In this document: in pieces, positions 32,405 through 43,325 of the stretch
Position numbering within the stretch: the stretch's first letter is position 1
Layout of the letters: each line of letters opens with the position of its first letter
Source of the DNA: Hominimerdicola alba 8
GTDB taxonomy: Bacteria > Bacillota > Clostridia > Oscillospirales > Ruminococcaceae
DNA: 64,000 nucleotides
Direction of reading: 5' to 3'
Assembly: GCF_000178155.2 (NCBI RefSeq)
Contig: NZ_ADKM02000062.1
Span: 62,001 to 126,000 of the forward strand
Position numbers and translations under genes: made by a program
Notes under the pieces: generated by a model
The model's input: the letters and a program-made list of their open reading frames with translations, nothing else
Told to the model about the DNA's origin: nothing
Database searches by the model: none

Positions 32405-32935
32405 ATGACATATATGCTCAACAGTATAGATGAAGCGATCGACAGAAAGTTTCTTGTAACTAAGCAGATGAAGGCTCAGGCTGAACCGGGCAGCATCATA
32501 CATGTGCTCAACGCCACCAAGAAGAAGGACGGTATCGTTGTAGATTACCGTGTTACCGATGTTGGCAAGGGCTACTCTTTCAGAGATTACGCAGCAAGGT
32601 TTGGCAGCGTGAGCGAGTTCTGCAAGTGGGCAAGACCCGATAACTTCATTGCAAGACATTATGAGTCATTTGATCTTAAGGAGATCCAGAACTACATCAA
32701 GGTCACTGACAGGAGTTTTGTAACTTTTGCTCTGCCGATAATCATTGTAGGTGTGCTGATATTTGCTGCACTGGGCATCTTCGTTGTCAAGGGTGTTGGC
32801 GGTATCGTTCTGGCAGCTATCGGTTCTCTGATCGTAATTTTCGGTATGACATGGTTCTTCCGCTGGCAGAAAAACAAGGTCAAGCTGGATCTGTACAGCA
32901 AGATCAGTTCTGACTGGGGCGTTCAGTTCAAGTAA
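32405..32935 (+). CDS. Hypothetical protein with two C-terminal transmembrane helices
   Basis: 176 residues. About 1-95 is soluble and charged (DEAIDRKFLVTKQMKAQAEP; VDYRVTDVGKGYSFRDYAARFG), about 103-125 and 128-150 are hydrophobic helices, and the end is basic and amphipathic (RWQKNKVKLDLYSKI). No family recognised. ATG is preceded by GGAAGGAAG. Monocistronic, with promoter and strong terminator. Confidence 0.65.
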   Translation: MTYMLNSIDEAIDRKFLVTKQMKAQAEPGSIIHVLNATKKKDGIVVDYRVTDVGKGYSFRDYAARFGSVSEFCKWARPDNFIARHYESFDLKEIQNYIKVTDRSFVTFALPIIIVGVLIFAALGIFVVKGVGGIVLAAIGSLIVIFGMTWFFRWQKNKVKLDLYSKISSDWGVQFK

Positions 32936-32968: not shown

Positions 32969-33012
32969 TTTTTTACATATACTAACTAGTCTTTAACTAT
33001 GTGATACAACAA

Positions 33013-33045
33013 AACCGCCGTCAGATATTTCACCTGACGGCGGTT
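33013..33045 (-). terminator. Terminator of the kinase/phosphatase signalling operon
   Basis: Perfect 12-bp stem AACCGCCGTCAG / CTGACGGCGGTT with a 9-base loop; TTTTG follows on the minus strand. Confidence 0.85.
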
Positions 33046-33057
33046 ATTATTTTCGTA

Positions 33058-34470
33058 TCAGAAGCCTGAATCTCTCATCTTCTTCTTGAAGTTTGAGTTT
33101 ACTTTGGCGTTCTTTTTCTTCTGCTTAGCGAGTTTTCTCATCTCGTCGAGAGTCATTGGAACTTCTTCCTCATCGTCATCGTCATCATCATAAGATGTCG
33201 AAGCAAAAGATGGCTTGCGCATCAGATCATCGGTAGTTACCGACTTAATGCTCTGGCTCACCGCCGGTCTTGAAGAGATATCACCGACCTGAATAGATGT
33301 CTGACCAACGCCCGGCATCTTCATCATGTTGGATACGCCGCTGCCTGCGGGACGAACTGTAGTGCCTGCGCCCTGGAAACCATTCTGCATAGGCTGCTGG
33401 AAGCCCATATTCTGCTGTGGGTAGCCGCCCTGCATGCCCCGCTGGAAGCCCATGTTCTGCTGAGGATAGCCGCCCTGCATGCCCTGCTGGAAGCCCATAT
33501 TCTGCTGAGGATAGCCGCCCTGCATGCCCTGCTGGAAGCCCATGTTCTGCTGAGGATAGCCGCCCTGCATGCCCTGCTGGGGATAACCCATGTTCTGCTG
33601 AGGATAGCCGCCCTGCATGCCCTGCTGGGGGTAGCCCATGTTCTGCTGGGGATAGCCGCTCTGGACACCCTGCTGAGGATAGCCCATGTTCTGCTGAGGG
33701 TAACCGCTCTGCTGCATACCCTGTCTTGGATAGCCCTGCTGCATCGTAGGAGGAATGCTGAAACCTGCTGCGCCCTGTGCTGTAGCATCATCAGGGTGAT
33801 CGAACATAGTCTTGACACCGCTGTTGGCAGCGTTTACGCCTGCATTTGGTGCTGCTGCTTCCTCAAAGAAAGGATTGCTTGAATCTACGCTGAAACCGTC
33901 AGCAAACTCGGCAGGAGCACCGACTGTTTCGGTCTTGACGCTGTTTGCAGTTTCGGCAGGCTTTGCTTCGGAAGAAGAAGTATCAACATCAAAGCCATCC
34001 ATAAGATCCATCATGCTTGGCTCTGCCGCAGGTGCTTCGGGAGCGGGTGCTGCTTTGCTATCGGGTACAGGAACGATATCCCTGAGCAGTGTACCTTCTT
34101 CGGGAGAAGTAAGCACGCAGCAATCGCCGTTTGCGGGATCATCCTGTGCAAGTATCATAAGGCTTGCTTTGCCTGTACCTGCAACGCTGCCGTCCCTGAA
34201 ATTCAGTGTTACCATCTTTTTGGCTACCGCACCGTTGGGGCTGTCGATAAAACGTCTTACAGCAACAGTTTCAGCGGGGATAGTTTCTACCTGACCGCCT
34301 TTTACTGTAATGGTCGTGATGCCTGTGGTAGGCTGTTCGTCGCCGTCAACGATAACACAAACAGCAGACTCGTTCTCGGAAATATACTCAGGCTTGTTCT
34401 GCATTATCATGTCTGCATACTGTTTTGCCAGATTATAGAGTTCGTTTATTTCCATAGTATTATACACCAT
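33058..34470 (-). CDS. Low-complexity GYPQQ-repeat protein ending the signalling operon
   Basis: 470 residues. About 1-135 is an ordered domain ([40 protein letters not shown]). About 140-240 is Ala/Pro/Glu-rich. About 245-365 is a tandem repeat of [17 protein letters not shown] and [16 protein letters not shown] units, at least eight. Then comes a linker, an acidic patch (DDDDDDEEE, about 430) and a Lys-rich tail ([19 protein letters not shown]). No signal peptide or transmembrane helix. The repeat is prion- or condensate-like in composition. It lies 21 bases after the GGDEF gene. Function unknown; a substrate or scaffold for the upstream kinase is a guess. Confidence 0.65.
33397..33738. repeat. 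In-frame tandem repeat coding for GYPQQ units
   Basis: Units of about 48-51 bases built on GGCTATCCTCAGCAGAACATG-like blocks (reverse complement), nearly identical at the DNA level in the middle copies. The frame is kept throughout. Confidence 0.85.
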
Positions 34471-34491
34471 TCACCTTTCCGCAATTATATC

Positions 34492-35448
34492 TTAGCCCTG
34501 TCTTGTGTAGAAGCAAAGCTGGTTCTTACCGCTTTCCTTTGCGTTGAACATTGCAGTTTCTGCGCATCTGAACAGGTCATCTGCGGTCATAGCATTCTCC
34601 GGGAAGCTGGCTGCACCGTAGCTTGCTGCAACGGTGTATACGTTACCGCCCATTGTGATAGGCTCACTGAAAATGCCGCTGATGCCCGCAGCGTACTTGT
34701 AGATAGCTTCATTTGTCATACCGCTGCCGAGTATTATACCGAACTCGTCGCCGCCGATCTTAGCTGCGAAATTGTTGCCGCCGCAGTAGATCTTGATCTT
34801 CTCGGCGTACTGCTTGAGAAGGTCGTCGCCTATTGCGTGGCCGAAGTTATCGTTGATGCGTCTGAAATCGTCCAGATCTATGTAGATCATTACGCAGTCG
34901 CCGCTCTGTTTGATCTGCTTTTCAAGGCGCTCCATGAAGTTCTGTCTGTTGGGCATGCCTGTCAGCTTATCGTAGTAAGCCATGTACTTCATGCTCTCTT
35001 CCTGCTCTTCTATGATGCGGTTCTTCTCAATAGCTTCCTGATAGCTTTCTTTCAGTTCTTCGGTCATCTGCTCACTCTTGTTTGTATAGAAGTAGATAAC
35101 TGCTGCGATGCCGATGGTTATTACGTTTACGACAAAGCCGGGCAGAGCGTTTCTTCTGCCCATTGCGACCATCTGTATCAGCAGATACAGCGCGTTCAGA
35201 CCGTTGAGAGTCGCTGCTGCGATCATACCTTTCTTACGTGCGAAAAGGGTCATTACTACAGTTGCAACAACTTCGATCTGTCCGACTACGCCTGCCATCG
35301 CACTGTTGCCCTGCGGTGCACCGCCTGCTGCCTTCACTGCTCTAGCGTTATCTGCTGACATTTTTCCCTGTATTGCAACACACGCGAGATAAACAACAAT
35401 GCACACTATCATTATTATAAGATTCCTGGTTTCCTTTTTCTTTTCCAT
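34492..35448 (-). CDS. Membrane-bound diguanylate cyclase (GGDEF)
   Basis: 318 residues. N-terminal hydrophobic helices near 8-25, 48-68, 75-95 and 100-120 form a membrane module, followed by a coiled coil (about 122-150). GGDEF domain about 155-315: YYDKLTGMPNRQNFMERL, the metal site IYIDLDDFRRIND, and an intact active motif AKIGGDEFG. There is no RxxD-type inhibitory site clearly placed before it. It should make c-di-GMP at the inner face. It sits between the phosphatase gene (65-base gap) and the repeat protein, so c-di-GMP is probably an output or parallel branch of this operon. Confidence 0.92.
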   Translation of the reverse strand: MEKKKETRNLIIMIVCIVVYLACVAIQGKMSADNARAVKAAGGAPQGNSAMAGVVGQIEVVATVVMTLFARKKGMIAAATLNGLNALYLLIQMVAMGRRNALPGFVVNVITIGIAAVIYFYTNKSEQMTEELKESYQEAIEKNRIIEEQEESMKYMAYYDKLTGMPNRQNFMERLEKQIKQSGDCVMIYIDLDDFRRINDNFGHAIGDDLLKQYAEKIKIYCGGNNFAAKIGGDEFGIILGSGMTNEAIYKYAAGISGIFSEPITMGGNVYTVAASYGAASFPENAMTADDLFRCAETAMFNAKESGKNQLCFYTRQG

Positions 35449-35513
35449 TATGAATACACTCCGTTAACCAAATTTTCCAATATTACCTAATTTTCCATAT
35501 ATGGGTCACTTCA

Positions 35514-36419
35514 TCAGAAGTTAGCCGTATGAAGTCTTGCCTTTCTTTCGGCGGCAAGCTTCTTGTTCCGCTCTATCATTTCTTTGAGCAGATCCACTTT
35601 TTCCTGAGCAAACTCAACATCGTAAACGCATGCCAGCGAGATATCATCTTCTGTGCCGAAATGCGACCTCTTGGTTATGTTCTTCACCACTGATGCTTCC
35701 AGAGAGGGCGAGTTGACCTGCGATGCGAGTATTACATGATAATCCCTGAAATCGTACTCACTGCCGAAAGACGTATAAAGTCCGTCAGTCGAAGAGAACA
35801 GCGCTATGGGGCGCTTGTCATCGATATAGAAACTCTCGAACATCGAAGCTGCGTTAGCGTTACACATCGATGAAGTGATATTGGCAGGATTTGCCTCTTC
35901 ATACTCCATCGGCATTACAGCCTCGCCGTCTTCAAATATCGCAACGAAGCTGCCGTCGCCTATCTGCACGCCGAAAGTAAAACCTCTGCCTGCCACAGCC
36001 GCGATAAGTGTTGTGCCGTAGTAGGATTCCGGGTTTATCGCCTCGAATTCTTCCTGCGTGAAAGGCTTCTTCTCGACAGCAGTTACAGGATTTTCTTCAA
36101 GGTGCTTCATCACCTTAGTATTCCATGCTGCGATTATCTGCCTTTCGATATTTCTGATTATCATTTTGTGATTTTTCGGCAGATTCTCTTCAAACGCATC
36201 CGGGTCTTCATAGAACCTGTCGATAGTTTCGATAGTGGCTTCAACAGCGCACTGCGAACCTATATTACTTCGGAAGTGTTTTTTACTTCCGTGACCGTCC
36301 GCCACTACAGCGATAGCGTAACGGTCGGTTATCTTGTGTGCCGAACTGTCCTGACACACTATTCCTTTTGCCACGTGGCTGGCACCCATTACCGAGTGGC
36401 TAAAGCCATTAAAAGACAT
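35514..36419 (-). CDS. PP2C-family protein phosphatase
   Basis: 301 residues. PP2C motifs: early ASHVAKGIVCQDSSAH, metal Asp in AVVADGHGSKKH (about 41), YGTTLIAAVAGRGF (motif for strand pair), VQIGDGSFVAI (about 155), FSSTDGLYTSFG (metal Asp, about 215) and EDDISLACVYD near 262. All main metal ligands are present. A Lys/Arg/Glu-rich helix ends the chain. Together with the vWA gene (33 bases upstream) and the kinase-like gene it forms a TerY-P-type triad, in which the phosphatase is thought to reverse the kinase. Confidence 0.88.
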   Translation of the reverse strand: MSFNGFSHSVMGASHVAKGIVCQDSSAHKITDRYAIAVVADGHGSKKHFRSNIGSQCAVEATIETIDRFYEDPDAFEENLPKNHKMIIRNIERQIIAAWNTKVMKHLEENPVTAVEKKPFTQEEFEAINPESYYGTTLIAAVAGRGFTFGVQIGDGSFVAIFEDGEAVMPMEYEEANPANITSSMCNANAASMFESFYIDDKRPIALFSSTDGLYTSFGSEYDFRDYHVILASQVNSPSLEASVVKNITKRSHFGTEDDISLACVYDVEFAQEKVDLLKEMIERNKKLAAERKARLHTANF

Positions 36420-36452
36420 TTTCTTCCAACACTCCTTCCGACATCTTACGAT

Positions 36453-37265
36453 TTACCAGCCCGTATCGTAAGGAACGTCGCCTGCGTCAGTCTGGTCACC
36501 GACCAGTTCCTGGATCTGCTGACCCAGCATCTTCTGCTTAGCTGCGTATACGTCCTCATCGCTGAGTTCTTCGTTAGTTTCGTCGGAAAGTGTCATTGAC
36601 TTACTTCCTATCTGGGAAGCTGTTACTGCGATTATCTTGATCATCGCAGCAAGCTGTCCGCCTGTGTAAGCGTGAACAACAGTGTCCTTAGAGCCTGTGA
36701 ACTCTTCCAGCATATCATCGTTTGCTTCATCACCGATACCCAGTGCAGCCTTAAGACCGAACTTATACCAGCTGTTGGCCTGAAGTGCCTTCAGACCTGC
36801 CTTATAGTCATCAGAAGGATAACCGTCTGTCATAAGGAACATTACGGGTGCGAACGAAAGTGAAGGTGAATTCAGGAAGCTGTTTCTGGACATTCTTGCA
36901 GCCAGTTCGGTGAATGCAGCGCCCATGCTGGTAACGCCCTGTGCGCCCAGTCTTGCCCACTCGAACTCTTCGATGGAGATAGGTGCTGAGTACATCCACT
37001 TAACATCTGTATCGAAAGTCAGAACTGCGACCTTAACATCAGTATCAGCTTCACCGACTCTTCTTATCTCAGGTATCAGCTCTTCCATAACGGTGTTCAG
37101 CTGACCCATCTTCTTGCCCTTCATGCTTCCCGAAGTATCTATCAGGAAGAAGATAACAAGGCTCTTTTTAGATACCGCTGTGGCGCCGAGGGGATCATCA
37201 TCGTCAAAATCCAGCAGATCATCAACAGTGGTGTTTTCCTTGACCTCATTGTTATTATTATTCAT
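36453..37265 (-). CDS. TerY-like von Willebrand factor A domain protein
   Basis: 270 residues. Acidic N-terminus (DDLLDFDDDDP), then a vWA fold: MIDAS motif FFLIDTSGSMKGKK (about 38), Thr in GVTSMGAAF (about 113) and Asp in FLMTDGYPSDD (about 147), so all three metal-ion sites are kept. No signal peptide; cytoplasmic. A C-terminal acidic extension (about 225-270) follows. TerY-type vWA proteins are proposed to bind partners in a metal-dependent way. Located 26 bases after the kinase-like gene and before the PP2C gene. Confidence 0.88.
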   Translation of the reverse strand: MNNNNNEVKENTTVDDLLDFDDDDPLGATAVSKKSLVIFFLIDTSGSMKGKKMGQLNTVMEELIPEIRRVGEADTDVKVAVLTFDTDVKWMYSAPISIEEFEWARLGAQGVTSMGAAFTELAARMSRNSFLNSPSLSFAPVMFLMTDGYPSDDYKAGLKALQANSWYKFGLKAALGIGDEANDDMLEEFTGSKDTVVHAYTGGQLAAMIKIIAVTASQIGSKSMTLSDETNEELSDEDVYAAKQKMLGQQIQELVGDQTDAGDVPYDTGW

Positions 37266-37291
37266 AAATCATTTCGCCCTTTCCTAAAAAT

Positions 37292-38635
37292 TTATATTTT
37301 CGCGGTGACTTTACCGAAATCGACCTCTAAGTCCTTCCATATAGGGAAGCCTTTACCCGGCTGTATCGGATAATACTTACCATCGGGAAGTTTTGCGTTC
37401 CATGTATCCTCAGTACAGTTCTTGATACCCAGAACACCTGGCTTGAGCTTGTTCTCGACCAGCTCACCTGCTACTGTCAGGAAATCATCGCAATCGGGGT
37501 CTATCTCGCACTTATAGAACTTACAGCCAACGTAAAGCGGCATTCTGTTCTCTCTGTTGCTGAAACCGAGTGTTGCGAACTCTGTGCCGCACTTGGGGCA
37601 GCGGAAGGTCTTTTCATCGGTCTTGGCAAACATGGAGGTGAAATTTGTTCTGCCGCACACGCACTGTATTATCTCAGATCTCAATCTGATGAACAGCTTC
37701 TGCCATTCATTCTCGATTATACGCTTATTGGGGTCTGAGATACCCTGAGTGAATGAAAGTATGAAAGCATCTCTGATATACTTGGGGTATATCCTCCAGA
37801 ACTTGATAACATTGTCGTGGATGCCTCTTACAGGTCTGTTCGTGGCGTTGTCGGGGTCATAAACGAACACAGCGTCCTGACCGTAGTGTCTGAGTTCCGA
37901 ACTCTCGGTCAGGCAAACGTCCTTAACGACCTTTTCGCCCTCCATCGGGTCACCTCTGAACAGCAGCTTGAAGAGTACGACTGCCAGCGAGTATTTATCT
38001 GTCTGCACATCAGGCTTTGCGATGCCTCTGACTACTTCGGGTGCCATGTAGCCGGGCTTACCGCCGATACCGAAGTTTGAACCTTCGGGCGCGATATTAT
38101 CGCAGTCGCAGACCAGTACGGCACCTGTATTGACGTTGATGAAGAAACCACCGTCGTTAAGGTCCTGATAGCTCTTGCCTGCGCGGTGCAGCTGTCTGAA
38201 CGTATTTGCGATATTGATGACCGCAGTCACCATAGCGTACAGGCTTTGAAATCTTACAGCCTGTTTGGTCGCCCTGCCTGTCAGCGGGTCGATGACCAGC
38301 TTATAGGTATTGAGTATATCCACAAAAGAGTCAAAACTCTCAGGTTTCAGCTCCATGATATAGCCGAATGTGCCGTCAGCATTTTCCTTTGTGAGATATT
38401 TTGGCCACAGGAACTTATTGCTGGGCGCACCGTCCTGGATATTGTTCTTGATATTCTGTCTGAATTCCTTCGGACGCTTTATCTTATCGACATCATACCA
38501 TTTCAGCGCCCATTTCTGGGAATTGAATTCTACGAGGTAAACGATACCCTGACCACCGCTGCCGATGACCTTGAGGACTTTCGCTCTTCCTCCGAATTCC
38601 ATCTCGACCTCCTGGCCGATCTTTAATTCAACCAT
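37292..38635 (-). CDS. Serine/threonine-kinase-like protein with C-terminal zinc-ribbon region
   Basis: 447 residues. Kinase fold about 15-285: Gly-loop VIGSGGQGIVYLVEF, Lys in KWALKWY, catalytic loop SYQDLNDGGFFIN (Asp kept; His, Arg and Lys of HRDLK replaced), metal loop VLVCDCDN in place of DFG, then GKPGYMAPEVVRG. This loop style recalls kinases known beside vWA and PP2C genes. About 320-345 has CVCGRTN...CPKC, a zinc-ribbon pair, as in TerY-C-type regions, and about 355-445 a further Cys-containing module (GCKFYKCEIDPDCDD). Cytoplasmic. 24 bases separate it from the zinc-ribbon/LRR gene. Active kinase is likely but untested. Confidence 0.85.
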   Translation of the reverse strand: MVELKIGQEVEMEFGGRAKVLKVIGSGGQGIVYLVEFNSQKWALKWYDVDKIKRPKEFRQNIKNNIQDGAPSNKFLWPKYLTKENADGTFGYIMELKPESFDSFVDILNTYKLVIDPLTGRATKQAVRFQSLYAMVTAVINIANTFRQLHRAGKSYQDLNDGGFFINVNTGAVLVCDCDNIAPEGSNFGIGGKPGYMAPEVVRGIAKPDVQTDKYSLAVVLFKLLFRGDPMEGEKVVKDVCLTESSELRHYGQDAVFVYDPDNATNRPVRGIHDNVIKFWRIYPKYIRDAFILSFTQGISDPNKRIIENEWQKLFIRLRSEIIQCVCGRTNFTSMFAKTDEKTFRCPKCGTEFATLGFSNRENRMPLYVGCKFYKCEIDPDCDDFLTVAGELVENKLKPGVLGIKNCTEDTWNAKLPDGKYYPIQPGKGFPIWKDLEVDFGKVTAKI

Positions 38636-38659
38636 CTGATACTTCCTCCAATTTCTTCC

Positions 38660-39721
38660 TTATATCGGCTTCTGCTTCAGACCCACGCCTACCTGCACCG
38701 TTTCAAAGTCAATGTTATAAGTAAGGCAATACTTATGTACATATGAATTCTCGTAGCAGCGTATAGTAAGCTCGGGACAATAAGAAAAAGCATTCTTGTC
38801 GATGAACTTGACACTGTCGGGCAGGAACAGCTTTTCGAGTTTTTCACACCCTGAGAAAGCCTCGACACCGATACTGCTGACAGTATTGGGTATATCTACC
38901 ACGCTAAGGTTAGCGCAGAACTCAAAGGTATTATCCGGTATTTCCAGTATACCCTTTGGTATCTTTATCATCGCCAGCTTACCGCACTGGCTGAATGCGC
39001 CCTGCTCGATGACCCTAAGGCTTTCGGGCATCTCAACGCCCTTTAAATTCTTGCACTCGGAGAACGCATAGTCGCCTATAGCTATCATAGTAGAAGGCAG
39101 CTTTATCGAACGCATGAAGTTGAATCTGTCAAAGCAGAAGCTGTCGATCTTTGTAAAGCCTTCGGGGATCGTTACATTCCTTGCGAGCCTGTATCTGGTA
39201 GCGTCGGATGACTTGAATATCTTGGTATCAGGTCTGAGCTTCGGTGCTTCGGGCTTCTTTTCTTCCTCAACGGGTTCTGCGGGCTTTTCGGGCTCTTTGT
39301 TCTTCGACATGGAAGAATCGTATGGCCAGCCCAGCGTATAGGTGAAGCAAGCCAGCACGAATTCTGCCGCATTCTCGGAAACGAACAGTTCGTTTATCAT
39401 ATAACTCTTGGCGCTCAGCAGGGCATATTCCCTGTTGGTCTTTTCTTCCTTGACCATGTTTTTGAGCACGCCTGCCCTCATAGCATTTACCAGCAGTCTG
39501 CGTTCCTTGTCGTAGGCTGCGAGGTAGTCGTTCAGCATCGACACGAACTGAGTCGGGTCATTGATAAGTATGCTGCCATGCTTTTCCATGATGGTCTTCA
39601 GTATATGCTGGATCTCAATGGTATTTTCAAAGCCTTCGATATTCTGCGGAGCGGGTGCGCCGCAATTGGGACATTCTATGGCTTTGGGCGGCAGCTCAGC
39701 ATTACATCTTTCACACTGCAT
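38660..39721 (-). CDS. Zinc-ribbon / BspA-type leucine-rich repeat protein
   Basis: 353 residues. N-terminal zinc ribbon CERCNAELPPKAIECPNC (1-20), a helical domain (about 30-120, with MLNDYLAAYDKERRLLVNAM), a Pro/Glu/Lys linker (about 130-155) and five or six LRR_5 repeats (about 175-330: YAFSECKNLKGVEMPESLRV and similar). No signal peptide, unlike surface BspA proteins, so it likely acts inside the cell as an interaction platform. First gene after the operon promoter. The zinc ribbon parallels that in the kinase. Function unknown. Confidence 0.78.
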   Translation of the reverse strand: MQCERCNAELPPKAIECPNCGAPAPQNIEGFENTIEIQHILKTIMEKHGSILINDPTQFVSMLNDYLAAYDKERRLLVNAMRAGVLKNMVKEEKTNREYALLSAKSYMINELFVSENAAEFVLACFTYTLGWPYDSSMSKNKEPEKPAEPVEEEKKPEAPKLRPDTKIFKSSDATRYRLARNVTIPEGFTKIDSFCFDRFNFMRSIKLPSTMIAIGDYAFSECKNLKGVEMPESLRVIEQGAFSQCGKLAMIKIPKGILEIPDNTFEFCANLSVVDIPNTVSSIGVEAFSGCEKLEKLFLPDSVKFIDKNAFSYCPELTIRCYENSYVHKYCLTYNIDFETVQVGVGLKQKPI

Positions 39722-39878
39722 AAATCTTCTCTCCTGACATATAAAATTTATTTACGCCGTTCATTTTCTGCCTGCGCAGGCTGTTCTGCCATGCGCAAAA
39801 TGTTCAAAATCATATCACACGAACGACGTCGTAATGGTAAATATTTTATCTAAATTGCACTCTAAATACATTTATTTA

Positions 39879-39907
39879 AGTATAGCACTTTTTGATAAAA
39901 TTGTCAA
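39879..39907 (-). promoter_or_regulatory. Promoter of the kinase/vWA/PP2C operon
   Basis: Minus strand TTGACA, 17 bases, TATACT. The spacer and the bases downstream closely match the promoter at 43297-43325. Confidence 0.88.
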
Positions 39908-39972
39908 GTAAAAATGACGCTCTAAGGCTGGATTTTACCGAAATTAAACAAAGATAACGTTTTCGACAAAAA

Positions 39973-40015
39973 TTCAGCGGCAAGGTTCTGAGAACATCAG
40001 AACAATGCCGCTGAA
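39973..40015 (-). terminator. Terminator of the sensory-hydrogenase gene
   Basis: Minus strand stem TTCAGCGGCA..GTTCTGA / TCAGAAC..TGCCGCTGAA with a small internal loop, followed by ATTTTTG. Confidence 0.8.
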
Positions 40016-40088
40016 AATATTATCCTGCCGAATAAACAGTGTATCACGAAATGCCGACAAGACCCTTAAACTGCGGGTCATTTCAGCT

Positions 40089-40172
40089 ATGGTATCCCTC
40101 AGCGGCATCAATAGCTATGCCGATGCGCCTTTTTACGGCTCCCATCGAGGCGAAAGCGGCATCAGATACCAT
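40089..40172. repeat. Inverted-repeat region downstream of the hydrogenase homologue
   Basis: ATGGTATC (40089-40096) pairs with GATACCAT (40165-40172). Inside, AGCGGCATC occurs twice in direct orientation. The region lies between the stop of the hydrogenase gene and its terminator, so it would be in the 3' untranslated RNA. Confidence 0.5.
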
Positions 40173-40224
40173 GATACACCTGCCTTTCCGTTACGCAAAA
40201 CGACTATTCGCGCGGCTTATCGGA

Positions 40225-41907
40225 TCATTTCTTCTCGGTGGTCTTATGGAGAGTCTTATTGATCTCATCGACCAGATTGGTGATATCACCGATCGAACTG
40301 TTGATGATGCCTGAACTCTCATTGGTGACATTTACATTATCGTCCAGTGCGCTGAAAGCATCTATGGTAGTTTCCAGAATGGTAACGAGCTGACCGACAC
40401 TGTCTGCGTCCATCGTGGAGTTATCGTTACAGAACGCCACGACATTCTCCAGCAGATTTCTTACGACGCCCGCTCTCTCGCTGGTCTTGGTGGTAGACTC
40501 ACCGATAGTTTCCATATTCTTCATGATATTATCAACGCCCTCTTTCAGCTTATCTGAAAGTTCAAGACATTCGTAAGTGATCTCTGCCAGTTTCTCATGC
40601 TGTTCTGCCAGCTGGCTGTGTCTTGCCACCATTATGCTCTTGGCATGGATAACGCAGTTATCGGGCGTATTCAGACCTCTGTAGATAGCTATAGCCATAT
40701 CGCGGCATGATCTGTAGCCACATGCACGACAGTCAAAGTGCTTGTCATCTTCTTCGATCTTGCCCATGCTCTCATAAACATTTTCAAGCTGTCTTTCAGT
40801 GGGGACGGGTGTAGGAGTCACAGGCTTATAGTTTCTCAGGAAGTCATTGAGTTTCAGTTCATCATCGAACTTCTTGAAAAGTCTGTCATCGCCTCTGCCC
40901 ATGAAGCCTGATTTACGGCGGCTCTTCGCCTCGTTCTCGACTTCTTTCATGGTTACCATCACATCGAACATTGTCTGGTTAGCGCCTGCGCCGGGTCCGA
41001 TATTACAGCCGAACTCACAGGAGAGCACATCAAACACTTCGGGGTGTTTGAAGTCGGGCATCTCGGCATACATATCCAGTTCACGGTACACCTTGCCCAC
41101 GCCCTCTGATGTAGTGATATTGATATCGGGGTTGTGGAGCCAGAGGTTATCTCTAAGTCCGCCCGGACGCGAATAGACAGCGCCCACCTGACCCTGCTGG
41201 TCATCGAAGCGGTACTCATAGTCATCGGTATTTGAAACGGGTATGCTTATGCCGTTTTTCTCGAAATACTCGCCCAGTTTCTTGAAGGTGACGTTATAAT
41301 CAACAAGACCTGTTTCCTCGAACTCATATTTCTTGGCGATACATGAAGTCAGCGCCGCGATGGGGTTATTTCTGTTAAGATACTTCTTTATGTAAGTCGC
41401 GCTGCACAGAGTAGGGCTGTGTATAGGCGAGAGGTTAGCCAGCAGTTTAGGCTGATAAGTTTCAACATACTTGACGATGGAAGCGCAGGGCTGTGTTATC
41501 ACGTTGCCTACCTTTTTCTGCTCGATAGCCCTCAGATGTGCCCATGAACAGATATCTGCACCGAAAGAGCCGTCATATATCATGCAGCCCTGTTTACGGA
41601 ACCAGTCAAGTATGCCCTTCCACTTTGTGGGGAAGACCGCCTTGATAGCCGGGGTCGCAAGTATTATCATTTTCTCTTTCTTCATTCTGCTCATGCACTC
41701 ATCGGTATCATCGATATAATCTCTCGCACCGTGATTACAGTTTTTAACACATTCGCCGCAGCCTATACACCTGTCATTATTGACCATTGTGATAAATCTG
41801 CCGCCATCGATTATCTTTGTGATATTCGCCTCAGGCGCAGGACATGAACGCACGCAGGCATTACAGCCAACACACTTATCAGGTCTGACAATAAGTAACT
41901 CACTCAT
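40225..41907 (-). CDS. Sensory [FeFe]-hydrogenase-like protein with chemoreceptor-like tail
   Basis: 560 residues from the ATG at 41907 (RBS AAGGAG). About 1-60: two 4Fe-4S ferredoxin motifs (CVGCNACVRSCP, CIGCGECVKNC). About 70-330: [FeFe]-hydrogenase large-subunit fold with altered H-cluster blocks QPCASIVKYVE, TSCIAKKYEF and VLSCEFGCNIGPG, keeping four candidate cysteine ligands. About 385-420: an extra FeS motif CRACGYRSCRDMA. About 430-560: a long helical tail resembling a methyl-accepting-protein coiled coil, with no PAS domain. This altered motif set is that of sensory (group C) hydrogenases, which are known in R. albus. A hydrogen or redox sensor is inferred; turnover is not implied. 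Confidence 0.82.
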   Translation of the reverse strand: MSELLIVRPDKCVGCNACVRSCPAPEANITKIIDGGRFITMVNNDRCIGCGECVKNCNHGARDYIDDTDECMSRMKKEKMIILATPAIKAVFPTKWKGILDWFRKQGCMIYDGSFGADICSWAHLRAIEQKKVGNVITQPCASIVKYVETYQPKLLANLSPIHSPTLCSATYIKKYLNRNNPIAALTSCIAKKYEFEETGLVDYNVTFKKLGEYFEKNGISIPVSNTDDYEYRFDDQQGQVGAVYSRPGGLRDNLWLHNPDINITTSEGVGKVYRELDMYAEMPDFKHPEVFDVLSCEFGCNIGPGAGANQTMFDVMVTMKEVENEAKSRRKSGFMGRGDDRLFKKFDDELKLNDFLRNYKPVTPTPVPTERQLENVYESMGKIEEDDKHFDCRACGYRSCRDMAIAIYRGLNTPDNCVIHAKSIMVARHSQLAEQHEKLAEITYECLELSDKLKEGVDNIMKNMETIGESTTKTSERAGVVRNLLENVVAFCNDNSTMDADSVGQLVTILETTIDAFSALDDNVNVTNESSGIINSSIGDITNLVDEINKTLHKTTEKK

Positions 41908-41978
41908 AATACACACTCCTTACCGCCCGCACTGCGGGCATGCTAACACCCAATTTACCCTAAAAGTAAAATATATTT

Positions 41979-42086
41979 TATGACTATCCCTTTAGCACAC
42001 CGATCATGTCAGCAATATCCTCTTTTCCCCGATATCAGGGGAAAATAAGACTGCCTACCATTGTCTGAGCCATCGGGACGACACTA
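41979..42086. repeat. MITE-like element, right end degenerate
   Basis: Left end TATGACTATCCCTTTAGCACACC is intact. The inside holds a hairpin TTTTCCCC / GGGGAAAA (42023-42045). The right end near TCGGGACGACACTA is only weakly like the family and abuts the stop codon of the next gene. It lies 71 bases upstream of the hydrogenase-like start codon, between the two parts of the signalling cluster. Confidence 0.6.
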
Positions 42087-43196
42087 TCATTTTTTCAACT
42101 CATTAGCCTGTTTCAGCAGAGCACTGAGGTCAACGCCCGACTTTTTGCCGCCCTCAGCCGCTTTCTTTTCTTCGGGCTTTTTCTCTTCCGTCTTTTCTGC
42201 ATCTTCGGCTGTTTCTTCTGTTTTTTCTTCTGTTTTTTCTTCGGCTGATCCTTCAGCCTTTTCATCAGCGTTATCAGCTTCGCTGTTCTCGGTTTCGCCG
42301 CCCTTGAGCGCACTTGCCTGCTTCATCAGTTCTTCGAGTTTCGCATTGGACTTTTTCGGCTGCTCGCCCGCTTTTCTCGATTCGGGAGCTTCGGGGAGAT
42401 CCGCCTCGACCAGTTCGGGCACCTTAAATTCGGGAATGCCGCCCTCAGTCAGCTTGCTCTCGGTCTCTTTCAGCAGTTTTTCAGCTTCTGCGCCCCTTTC
42501 GGTTATGGCAGCAAGAGCCTCATTCAATGCAGCCATCTGCTTGCCGAGTTCCTCGACATCTGTGAGCATCGAAGCCCTGAGGTTATTGTTTGCTACCTTC
42601 ATCTTCTCGGAAGAATTCTTTGTTTCCGCGTCAGTTTCGGCAGCCTTTTTCTCGGCTTCGTAGATTATCTCGGCAGCTGTATGGTTGGCATCTTCAAGCA
42701 TCTCCTTGACCAGAGCCTCAGCCGCAGCCTTTTTATCTTCCGCTTCCTTATTGGCATTGCCGACCAGTGCATTAGCGGACTGCTGTGCTGCTATGAACAC
42801 CTGACTCAGTGCCGCAGCTTCATCATCGGATTCATAAGCGCTCAGTTTAGACTTGACATCTTCCAGTTCCTTGACAGCAGCAGCGTGGCTCTCTTTAAGA
42901 GCAGCAAGTTCTTCTGCCAGCTTTGCCTTGTCTTCCTCAGCTGCTTTCAGCTTTGCGGAATTTGTTTCATTCTGCACCTGCAGGCTGGTCAGCTTGACCT
43001 TTTCCTGTGCAAGCACAGTTTCATGGGCTTTTTCCTCATCGCTGCCCTTCTTGTATTCTTCCATTATAAGTTTTGTTTCACGGAGTTCATTCTTGAGGTC
43101 AAACACCTGACCGTTCAGAAATTCCAACCTTTTTATAACTTCATTTCTGTCATAACCGCCGAACTCGACAGTCTTTATAAACCTGGTTTCCGCCAT
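42087..43196 (-). CDS. Coiled-coil protein with DivIVA-like N-terminus
   Basis: 369 residues. The first 35 (ETRFIKTVEFGGYDRNEVIKRL) resemble the membrane-curvature start of DivIVA/GpsB-type proteins. About 25-250 is almost continuous coiled coil (heptads such as KAAEEDKAKLAEELAALKE). About 260-350 is Glu/Lys/Ala low complexity (EEKTEEKTEETAEDAEKTEEKK). It ends with a helix SGVDLSALLKQANELKK, an echo of KLEELMKQASALKG near 285. No signal peptide. It probably forms a filament or scaffold. First gene after the twin promoter at 43297. Confidence 0.7.
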   Translation of the reverse strand: MAETRFIKTVEFGGYDRNEVIKRLEFLNGQVFDLKNELRETKLIMEEYKKGSDEEKAHETVLAQEKVKLTSLQVQNETNSAKLKAAEEDKAKLAEELAALKESHAAAVKELEDVKSKLSAYESDDEAAALSQVFIAAQQSANALVGNANKEAEDKKAAAEALVKEMLEDANHTAAEIIYEAEKKAAETDAETKNSSEKMKVANNNLRASMLTDVEELGKQMAALNEALAAITERGAEAEKLLKETESKLTEGGIPEFKVPELVEADLPEAPESRKAGEQPKKSNAKLEELMKQASALKGGETENSEADNADEKAEGSAEEKTEEKTEETAEDAEKTEEKKPEEKKAAEGGKKSGVDLSALLKQANELKK

Positions 43197-43296
43197 TCTA
43201 TCATTCCTCCTGAAGCCGCATTTTTTTGCGGCAGCCTATTGAAAATTATACACAAATAAGGCTTATGCCTACCCTTTCATATAATTTATACTATTA

Positions 43297-43325
43297 AGTA
43301 TAAAACTTTTTTTCACAATTGTCAA
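43297..43325 (-). promoter_or_regulatory. Promoter of the coiled-coil/hydrogenase-like genes
   Basis: Minus strand TTGACA, 17 bases, TATACT, followed by TTAATAGTATAAATT. Spacing and flanks mirror the promoter at 39879. The remaining 43326-43616 gap is AT-rich with nothing else recognised. Confidence 0.88.

Follow-up and report, generated by a model that had tools for sequence, protein, structure and literature searches.

The window analysed here, a 64,000-nucleotide stretch of Hominimerdicola alba 8 (contig NZ_ADKM02000062.1, positions 62,001 to 126,000), belongs to a 270-kb contig in a genome of 4.05 Mb and carries a conserved gene set in which a homologue of sensory [FeFe]-hydrogenases (HYD) and a coiled-coil protein (COIL) stand next to a leucine-rich repeat (LRR) protein, a Ser/Thr kinase, a vWA protein, a PP2C phosphatase, a GGDEF protein and a protein with GYPQQ repeats (REP). 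A sequence-only reading of this DNA had placed eight same-strand genes here, and all eight open reading frames (ORFs) were found on the minus strand where it had put them; two further members, TM176 and P201, lie beyond the coordinates it covered, so that the set is larger than it had proposed (Table 1; domain calls are from a Pfam search of the window proteins listing matches down to E ≤ 0.1). We propose, at roughly even confidence, that the set is a conserved signalling system of Ruminococcus and its relatives in which HYD, as a sensor of H2 or redox state, would feed a phosphorylation switch of the TerY-P type.

The gene set is not a chance adjacency. A profile search of genome contigs with the kinase alignment gave 155 relatives, the best 80 of which were retained as named loci; 52 of these, from Ruminococcus and relatives, span the full kinase-centred stretch of ~21.3 kb and form the counted set, and the 28 others were left out of the counts as short, with HYD still visible in 16 of them. 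Because the loci were selected on kinase resemblance and include many close kin, they do not count as independent events. The LRR, kinase, vWA and PP2C genes are contiguous in that order in every full locus, accompanied by REP and TM176 in 51 loci each, HYD and COIL in 50 each, P201 in 38 and a GGDEF gene of any type in 43, against 4 loci for SGNH, 2 each for MetZ and GlmU, and none for PEPmut, the control genes that flank the window. Our first control count held the controls to a stricter rule than the members; under a single BLAST rule (E ≤ 1e-5), the members scored HYD 50, COIL 50, REP 51, TM176 51, P201 38 and GGDEF 44, and the controls SGNH 4, MetZ 2, GlmU 2 and PEPmut 1. In all 50 loci that have them, HYD and COIL are neighbours on one strand; the two full loci in which HYD was not found, L198 and L205, probably belong to G276 and G063, genomes with HYD on a different contig. 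The sequence-only reading had reasoned that the combination would be accidental if relatives kept the triad of kinase, vWA protein and PP2C phosphatase and not its neighbours; this check did not refute the combination, as the hydrogenase homologue and the repeat gene do stay nearby. On the kinase tree, the nearest relatives of the window copy come from same-genus genomes and an uncultured Ruminococcus, and a vWA protein was found at E ≤ 0.001 in 21 of 29 same-genus genomes, some of these being distant paralogues.

Table 1. Genes and predicted regulatory features of the set, in window coordinates.
Feature	Position	Strand	Description
TM176	32405..32935	+	176 aa; convergent with REP; homologue in 51/52 full loci
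Terminator-like hairpin 3′ of REP	33010..33050	-	z -7.4 versus shuffles
REP (GYPQQ protein)	33058..34470	-	cytidine-deaminase fold (degenerate) with a variable stretch rich in PQQ and a basic C-terminus
GGDEF protein, membrane	34492..35448	-	PF00990 118.6 bits; GGDEF motif intact
PP2C phosphatase	35514..36419	-	PF13672 (PP2C_2) 124 bits; 52/52 loci
vWA (TerY-like) protein	36453..37265	-	PF00092 40.5 bits; DxSxS metal-site start; 52/52 loci
Ser/Thr kinase	37292..38635	-	PF00069 40.8 bits; C-terminal zinc-ribbon cysteines
LRR protein	38660..39721	-	BspA-type LRR with a helical part and a zinc ribbon at the N-terminus; PF13306 (LRR_5) 125.6 bits; 52/52 loci
Promoter-like site of six-gene unit	39907-39879	-	sigma-70-like, 11/12 matches
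Terminator-like hairpin between HYD and LRR	39966-40033	-	T run; z -6.1 versus shuffles
HYD, sensory [FeFe]-hydrogenase homologue	40225..41916	-	PF02906, PF04060, Fer4; helical tail
COIL, coiled-coil protein	42087..43196	-	weakly DivIVA-like; adjoins HYD
Promoter-like site upstream of COIL-HYD	43325-43297	-	sigma-70-like, 11/12 matches
P201	43617..44222	-	201 aa from GTG start; no Pfam match; 38/52 loci

The eight minus-strand genes are likely organized as two transcription units, COIL-HYD and LRR-to-REP, because a promoter-like site precedes each, a terminator-like hairpin separates HYD from the LRR gene and another follows REP; the two units proposed earlier thus hold up. Spacing within the six-gene unit is 21-65 bp, and the -35/-10 block upstream of the LRR gene is kept in both aligned relatives (L190 and L195). 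The promoter scan gave 27 sites with at least 9 matches versus 17.3 expected, so that weaker sites are uninformative. Across and upstream of the LRR-unit promoter, a block at window positions 39879-39965 is strongly conserved among the three aligned sequences and is possibly an operator. We abandoned the idea of a structured RNA at 40060-40205 (z -0.9), and Rfam gave no match at gathering score anywhere in the window, which therefore offers no support for a c-di-GMP (cyclic di-GMP) riboswitch. Among the smaller or less familiar members, the window copy of COIL has no Pfam match at E ≤ 0.1, and its relative in L066 matches DivIVA at 26.4 bits, under the cut-off of 28. TM176 has no Pfam match over cut-off and shows, by eye, hydrophobic stretches near its C-terminus that suggest two likely membrane spans; P201 has no Pfam match.

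Pfam recognizes Fe_hyd_lg_C in HYD, together with a pair of Fer4 sites at the N-terminus and an FeS site at the C-terminus. The window genome encodes four PF02906 proteins, of which HYD scores lowest, at ~80.4-82.5 bits versus 170-335 for the three others. Among 93 distinct relatives above 800 bits, all 16 cluster cysteines (eight N-terminal, four of the H-cluster and four C-terminal in the pattern Cx2Cx4Cx16C) are invariant, C299 is absent throughout (P in 66, Q in 19, S in 7, H in 1), M353 is always replaced by S or T, and M497 is replaced by L in 86. Lys358, which anchors the diiron site and holds a cyanide ligand of it, is K in 64 of the 93, including the window copy and its close clade; since it is replaced in the other 29, with A, E, Q or S in many named R. 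flavefaciens copies, part of the HYD family may have lost the diiron site. These replacements and the low PF02906 score would fit an account in which HYD is a plain Fe-S sensor of redox state, or of oxygen or NO, whose diiron subsite has gone in many species, the rest of the pathway being the same. We consider this possible but less likely than the proposal above, given the invariance of the four H-cluster cysteines in all 93 copies and the retention of K358 in the window copy and its close relatives; moreover, TamHydS, with an active site similar to that of HYD, is active (PMC8163306).

By published motif traits, HYD is assigned as a putative group D-like (M2e) sensory [FeFe]-hydrogenase homologue. 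It shares with group D and TamHydS (PMC8163306, PMC13104023) two N-terminal [4Fe-4S] sites, the H-cluster cysteines, the C-terminal Cx2Cx4Cx16C motif, the absence of C299, the change of M353 to Ser/Thr, mostly the change of M497 to L, and the lack of a PAS match (none at E ≤ 0.1 in Pfam), and differs in its longer helical tail and variable Lys358; absence of C299 and Ser/Thr at position 353 are given as group D traits in PMC8163306. A known parallel within the genus is the group C HydS of R. albus (PMC6776011), likewise a putative H2 sensor linked to a phosphatase gene. In the window genome, however, that protein corresponds to a separate locus (L085), has a weak PAS match that makes it the one group C-like member among the other PF02906 proteins, and is 24% identical to HYD over a BLAST piece, whereas the C-terminal PAS domain that is a group C trait is not found in HYD. 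PMC6776011 gives R. albus 7 three hydrogenases, to which HYD may be a further, uncounted addition. A signalling role for HYD is supported by a relative from the same family (L184:9029-11029) of like architecture that ends in a methyl-accepting chemotaxis protein (MCP) signalling domain (75.8 bits). Hydrogen is no more than a candidate signal, given the replacement of Lys358 in 29 of the 93 copies and the presence of the triad without HYD in G047 (see below). A clade comprising L066-L069 and L076-L079 has two HYD copies, one of 44-47% beside the triad and one of 64-65% elsewhere.

The TerY-P triad is defined in PMC11090510 as a vWA protein, a PP2C phosphatase and a kinase with a C-terminal zinc ribbon. 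Judged by sequence features, the triad of the window fits this definition, as had been proposed for it, because the kinase has zinc-ribbon cysteines, each of the 124 rows scored showing two CxC/CxxC pairs beyond the kinase domain, the vWA protein of the window has the DxSxS motif, as do 113 of 116 rows (both sets of rows being partly redundant), and the three genes are adjacent. Pfam zinc-ribbon models match the kinase C-terminus weakly, and the structure model, although poor (mean predicted local distance difference test score, pLDDT, 59.8), gives kinase-fold matches. The zinc ribbon had earlier been placed on the LRR protein, where there is indeed a Zn_Ribbon_1 match, under the Pfam cut-off at 21.2 bits; the kinase has C-terminal cysteines of its own. 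We make no claim for an FHA-like domain, which had been suspected at the C-terminus of the kinase: Pfam gave weak matches of zinc-finger type only, and the model is too poor to decide. Unlike the published TerY-P systems, the set holds no recognized Ter, restriction or CoCoNuT genes, and its triad is embedded with HYD, COIL, LRR, REP, TM176 and GGDEF.

TerY-P triads are reported to be antiphage in PMC7699616 and PMC11090510, and the kinase weakly matches the PD-T4-6 and mad6 models of PADLOC, so that the triad could be an anti-phage defence module beside which a redox sensor lies by chance. We regard this as highly improbable. PADLOC made no defence assignment for the set and matched neither the vWA protein nor the phosphatase nor any non-kinase member, and a search of PHROGs gave generic vWA and kinase matches only. 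No nuclease or other effector is found among the conserved members, and the set is fixed across the sampled Ruminococcus relatives, whereas most defence genes spread patchily. This form of the kinase looks family-specific, since, among 394 sampled genomes of the order, no match from beyond the family exceeds 468 bits. Other triads, with vWA proteins of 29-40% identity (L086-L088), have no HYD match by BLAST in their stretches, and L089 lacks a kinase match as well. Two further loci vary the arrangement: the window genome has a second LRR-kinase-REP locus (L179, G000:C119:60000-79900) that adjoins a GGDEF protein gene and has no vWA or PP2C match, and L151:3065-7880, between HYD and the LRR gene, encodes a DUF2201 vWA/metallopeptidase-like protein, a MoxR-like AAA protein and, by eye, a BspA-type LRR protein.

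REP had been taken for a scaffold-like repeat protein, a description that the family does not bear out: the repeat is its variable part, and the conserved part is an N-terminal domain with a predicted deaminase fold. The window copy has no Pfam match at E ≤ 0.1. The model of this domain (mean pLDDT 94) matches cytidine deaminase in Foldseek (E 6e-6) and blasticidin S deaminase in VIA (Z 14.4, 114 residues, 2.7 Å), and the relative in L068 reaches 25.3 bits for PF00383, the cut-off being 25. At least three PQQ motifs occur in 68 of 96 distinct copies, and NPF occurs in 90. The fold is thus common to REP and the cytidine and blasticidin S deaminases, but the H/E/C/C zinc site is complete in only 7 of 57 aligned copies, or 13 of 96 under a looser pattern. 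Where cytidine deaminases are expected to have H/C, PCxxC and a catalytic Glu, the window copy carries P/E/G/S or comparable residues that are not ligands, and its candidacy as an active deaminase was dropped with the loss of this site. From a modelled deaminase fold and a mostly incomplete zinc site, we conclude that REP is a predicted pseudo-deaminase in most of the copies seen.

The GGDEF gene is an accessory member of the set that comes in two forms: the window type is found in 9 of the 52 full loci and a second type in 38, with both in 5. The two types differ in the signature, GG[DE]EF being kept in the window copy (as GGDEF) and in 23 of 25 rows of its type and missing from 63 of 68 partly redundant rows in the score range of the second, a type that may bind c-di-GMP without making it. 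The genome has 31 GGDEF matches, from which ~0.16 would be expected per 21 kb. Set against this expectation, the counts in the loci indicate that c-di-GMP, proposed earlier as an output, is a recurrent putative output and not a fixed one. In L155:3899-6170 a second-type membrane GGDEF gene follows a Peripla_BP_4 lipoprotein gene, and L232:5832-8444 looks alike by eye; in many relatives such a pair of lipoprotein and degenerate-signature GGDEF genes lies near the LRR unit or points away from it divergently. In L168:12978-19736, PP2C is followed at once by seven tandem ORFs for window-type membrane GGDEF proteins whose signatures drift (GDEF, GDDF, SDKF).

The position of HYD relative to the kinase has changed repeatedly. 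Among 98 distinct kinase sequences (115 loci, identical ones merged), HYD is upstream on the same strand in 38 and on the opposite strand in 31, downstream on the opposite strand in 7 and on the same strand in 2, and outside the stretch in 20, thirteen of these stretches being shorter than 19 kb. Taking the rows with HYD and its four positions, at least six arrangement changes are needed on the kinase tree, yet HYD and kinase lie 2.4-9.3 kb apart in 78 of the 98. This persistence of linkage through rearrangement, while other neighbours turn over, argues for a functional tie. Across the family, a scan of 297 genomes at E ≤ 1e-70 gave matches in 40 with the kinase alignment and in 50 with the HYD alignment. 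With cut-offs set after the tables had been seen, 27 genomes have a strong kinase (>700 bits) and 19 a strong HYD (>850 bits, plus a split copy in G274). A strong kinase is present in 18 of the 19 strong-HYD genomes, compared with 27 of 297 overall (Fisher p 3e-21, kinship not corrected), and of the 18 with both, 12 have HYD and kinase no more than 10 kb apart, while in the other 6 HYD lies elsewhere (in one of these the kinase contig is 3.1 kb).

On the observed gene set, its linkage, its domains and the cluster ligands of HYD, together with the modelled fold of REP, we build the following scheme, whose protein contacts, signalling direction, ligand, targets and output are those we would predict. 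HYD would read H2 or the redox state of electron carriers via its clusters and relay a change of conformation through its helical tail to its partner COIL, which would set the balance of kinase and PP2C in the TerY-P switch. The vWA protein would be a metal-dependent assembly part of the switch, and the Zn-ribbon/LRR protein and REP would be among the targets of the switch; REP, as a mostly non-catalytic deaminase fold, may be an assembly hub, and in some lineages membrane GGDEF proteins would contribute an arm through c-di-GMP. It is possible, at somewhat short of an even chance, that the set supplies the signal path so far missing for a group D sensory [FeFe]-hydrogenase, running from H2 or redox state to reversible Ser/Thr phosphorylation with a mostly inactive cytidine deaminase as hub and a c-di-GMP side arm.

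Several findings weigh against a sensor coupled to the switch, beyond the variability of Lys358 described above. HYD seems to be transcribed apart from the triad, the co-occurrence in 18 genomes partly reflects kinship, and 9 of the 27 strong-kinase genomes have no strong HYD. These nine were rechecked individually at E ≤ 1e-40, the first scan having scored four candidates per genome: six (genera g29 and g96) carry HYD-like proteins that are more distant and unlinked, and no HYD reaches that threshold in G047, G098 or G083. G047, estimated to be 100% complete, has the triad (locus L166) and retains kinase, GGDEF and repeat gene; conversely, G262 has HYD and no kinase match at E ≤ 1e-20. COIL-HYD and LRR-to-REP might accordingly be two independent neighbouring systems with no functional link: each has its own predicted promoter, a terminator separates the two, either can occur alone, and they are apart in 6 of the 18 family genomes that have both, one of them at a contig end. 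We nonetheless find such independence improbable, as it leaves unexplained the linkage that survives the rearrangements and the behaviour of TM176, which accompanies either unit: where COIL-HYD lies apart from the kinase, TM176 is with it in L172, L175 and L189 and is not with it in L170 (a short contig), L171 and L174.

A literature search for the full combination, in which coverage of subscription journals was thin, found no matching paper. PMC6776011 reports a shift of R. albus between ethanol and acetate with H2. This shift bears on methane formation in ruminants, and a second putative sensor locus would offer a new handle on it. The conserved partner set also gives concrete candidates for the signal path of hydrogenase-like sensors, widens the possible uses of TerY-P triads and adds a degenerate deaminase to the proteins associated with signalling. 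If the proposed coupling is true, TerY-P would be a general sensor-coupled switch, beyond a metal-stress or defence module, and an H2 or redox signal path would operate in the fibre-degrading bacteria of the rumen.

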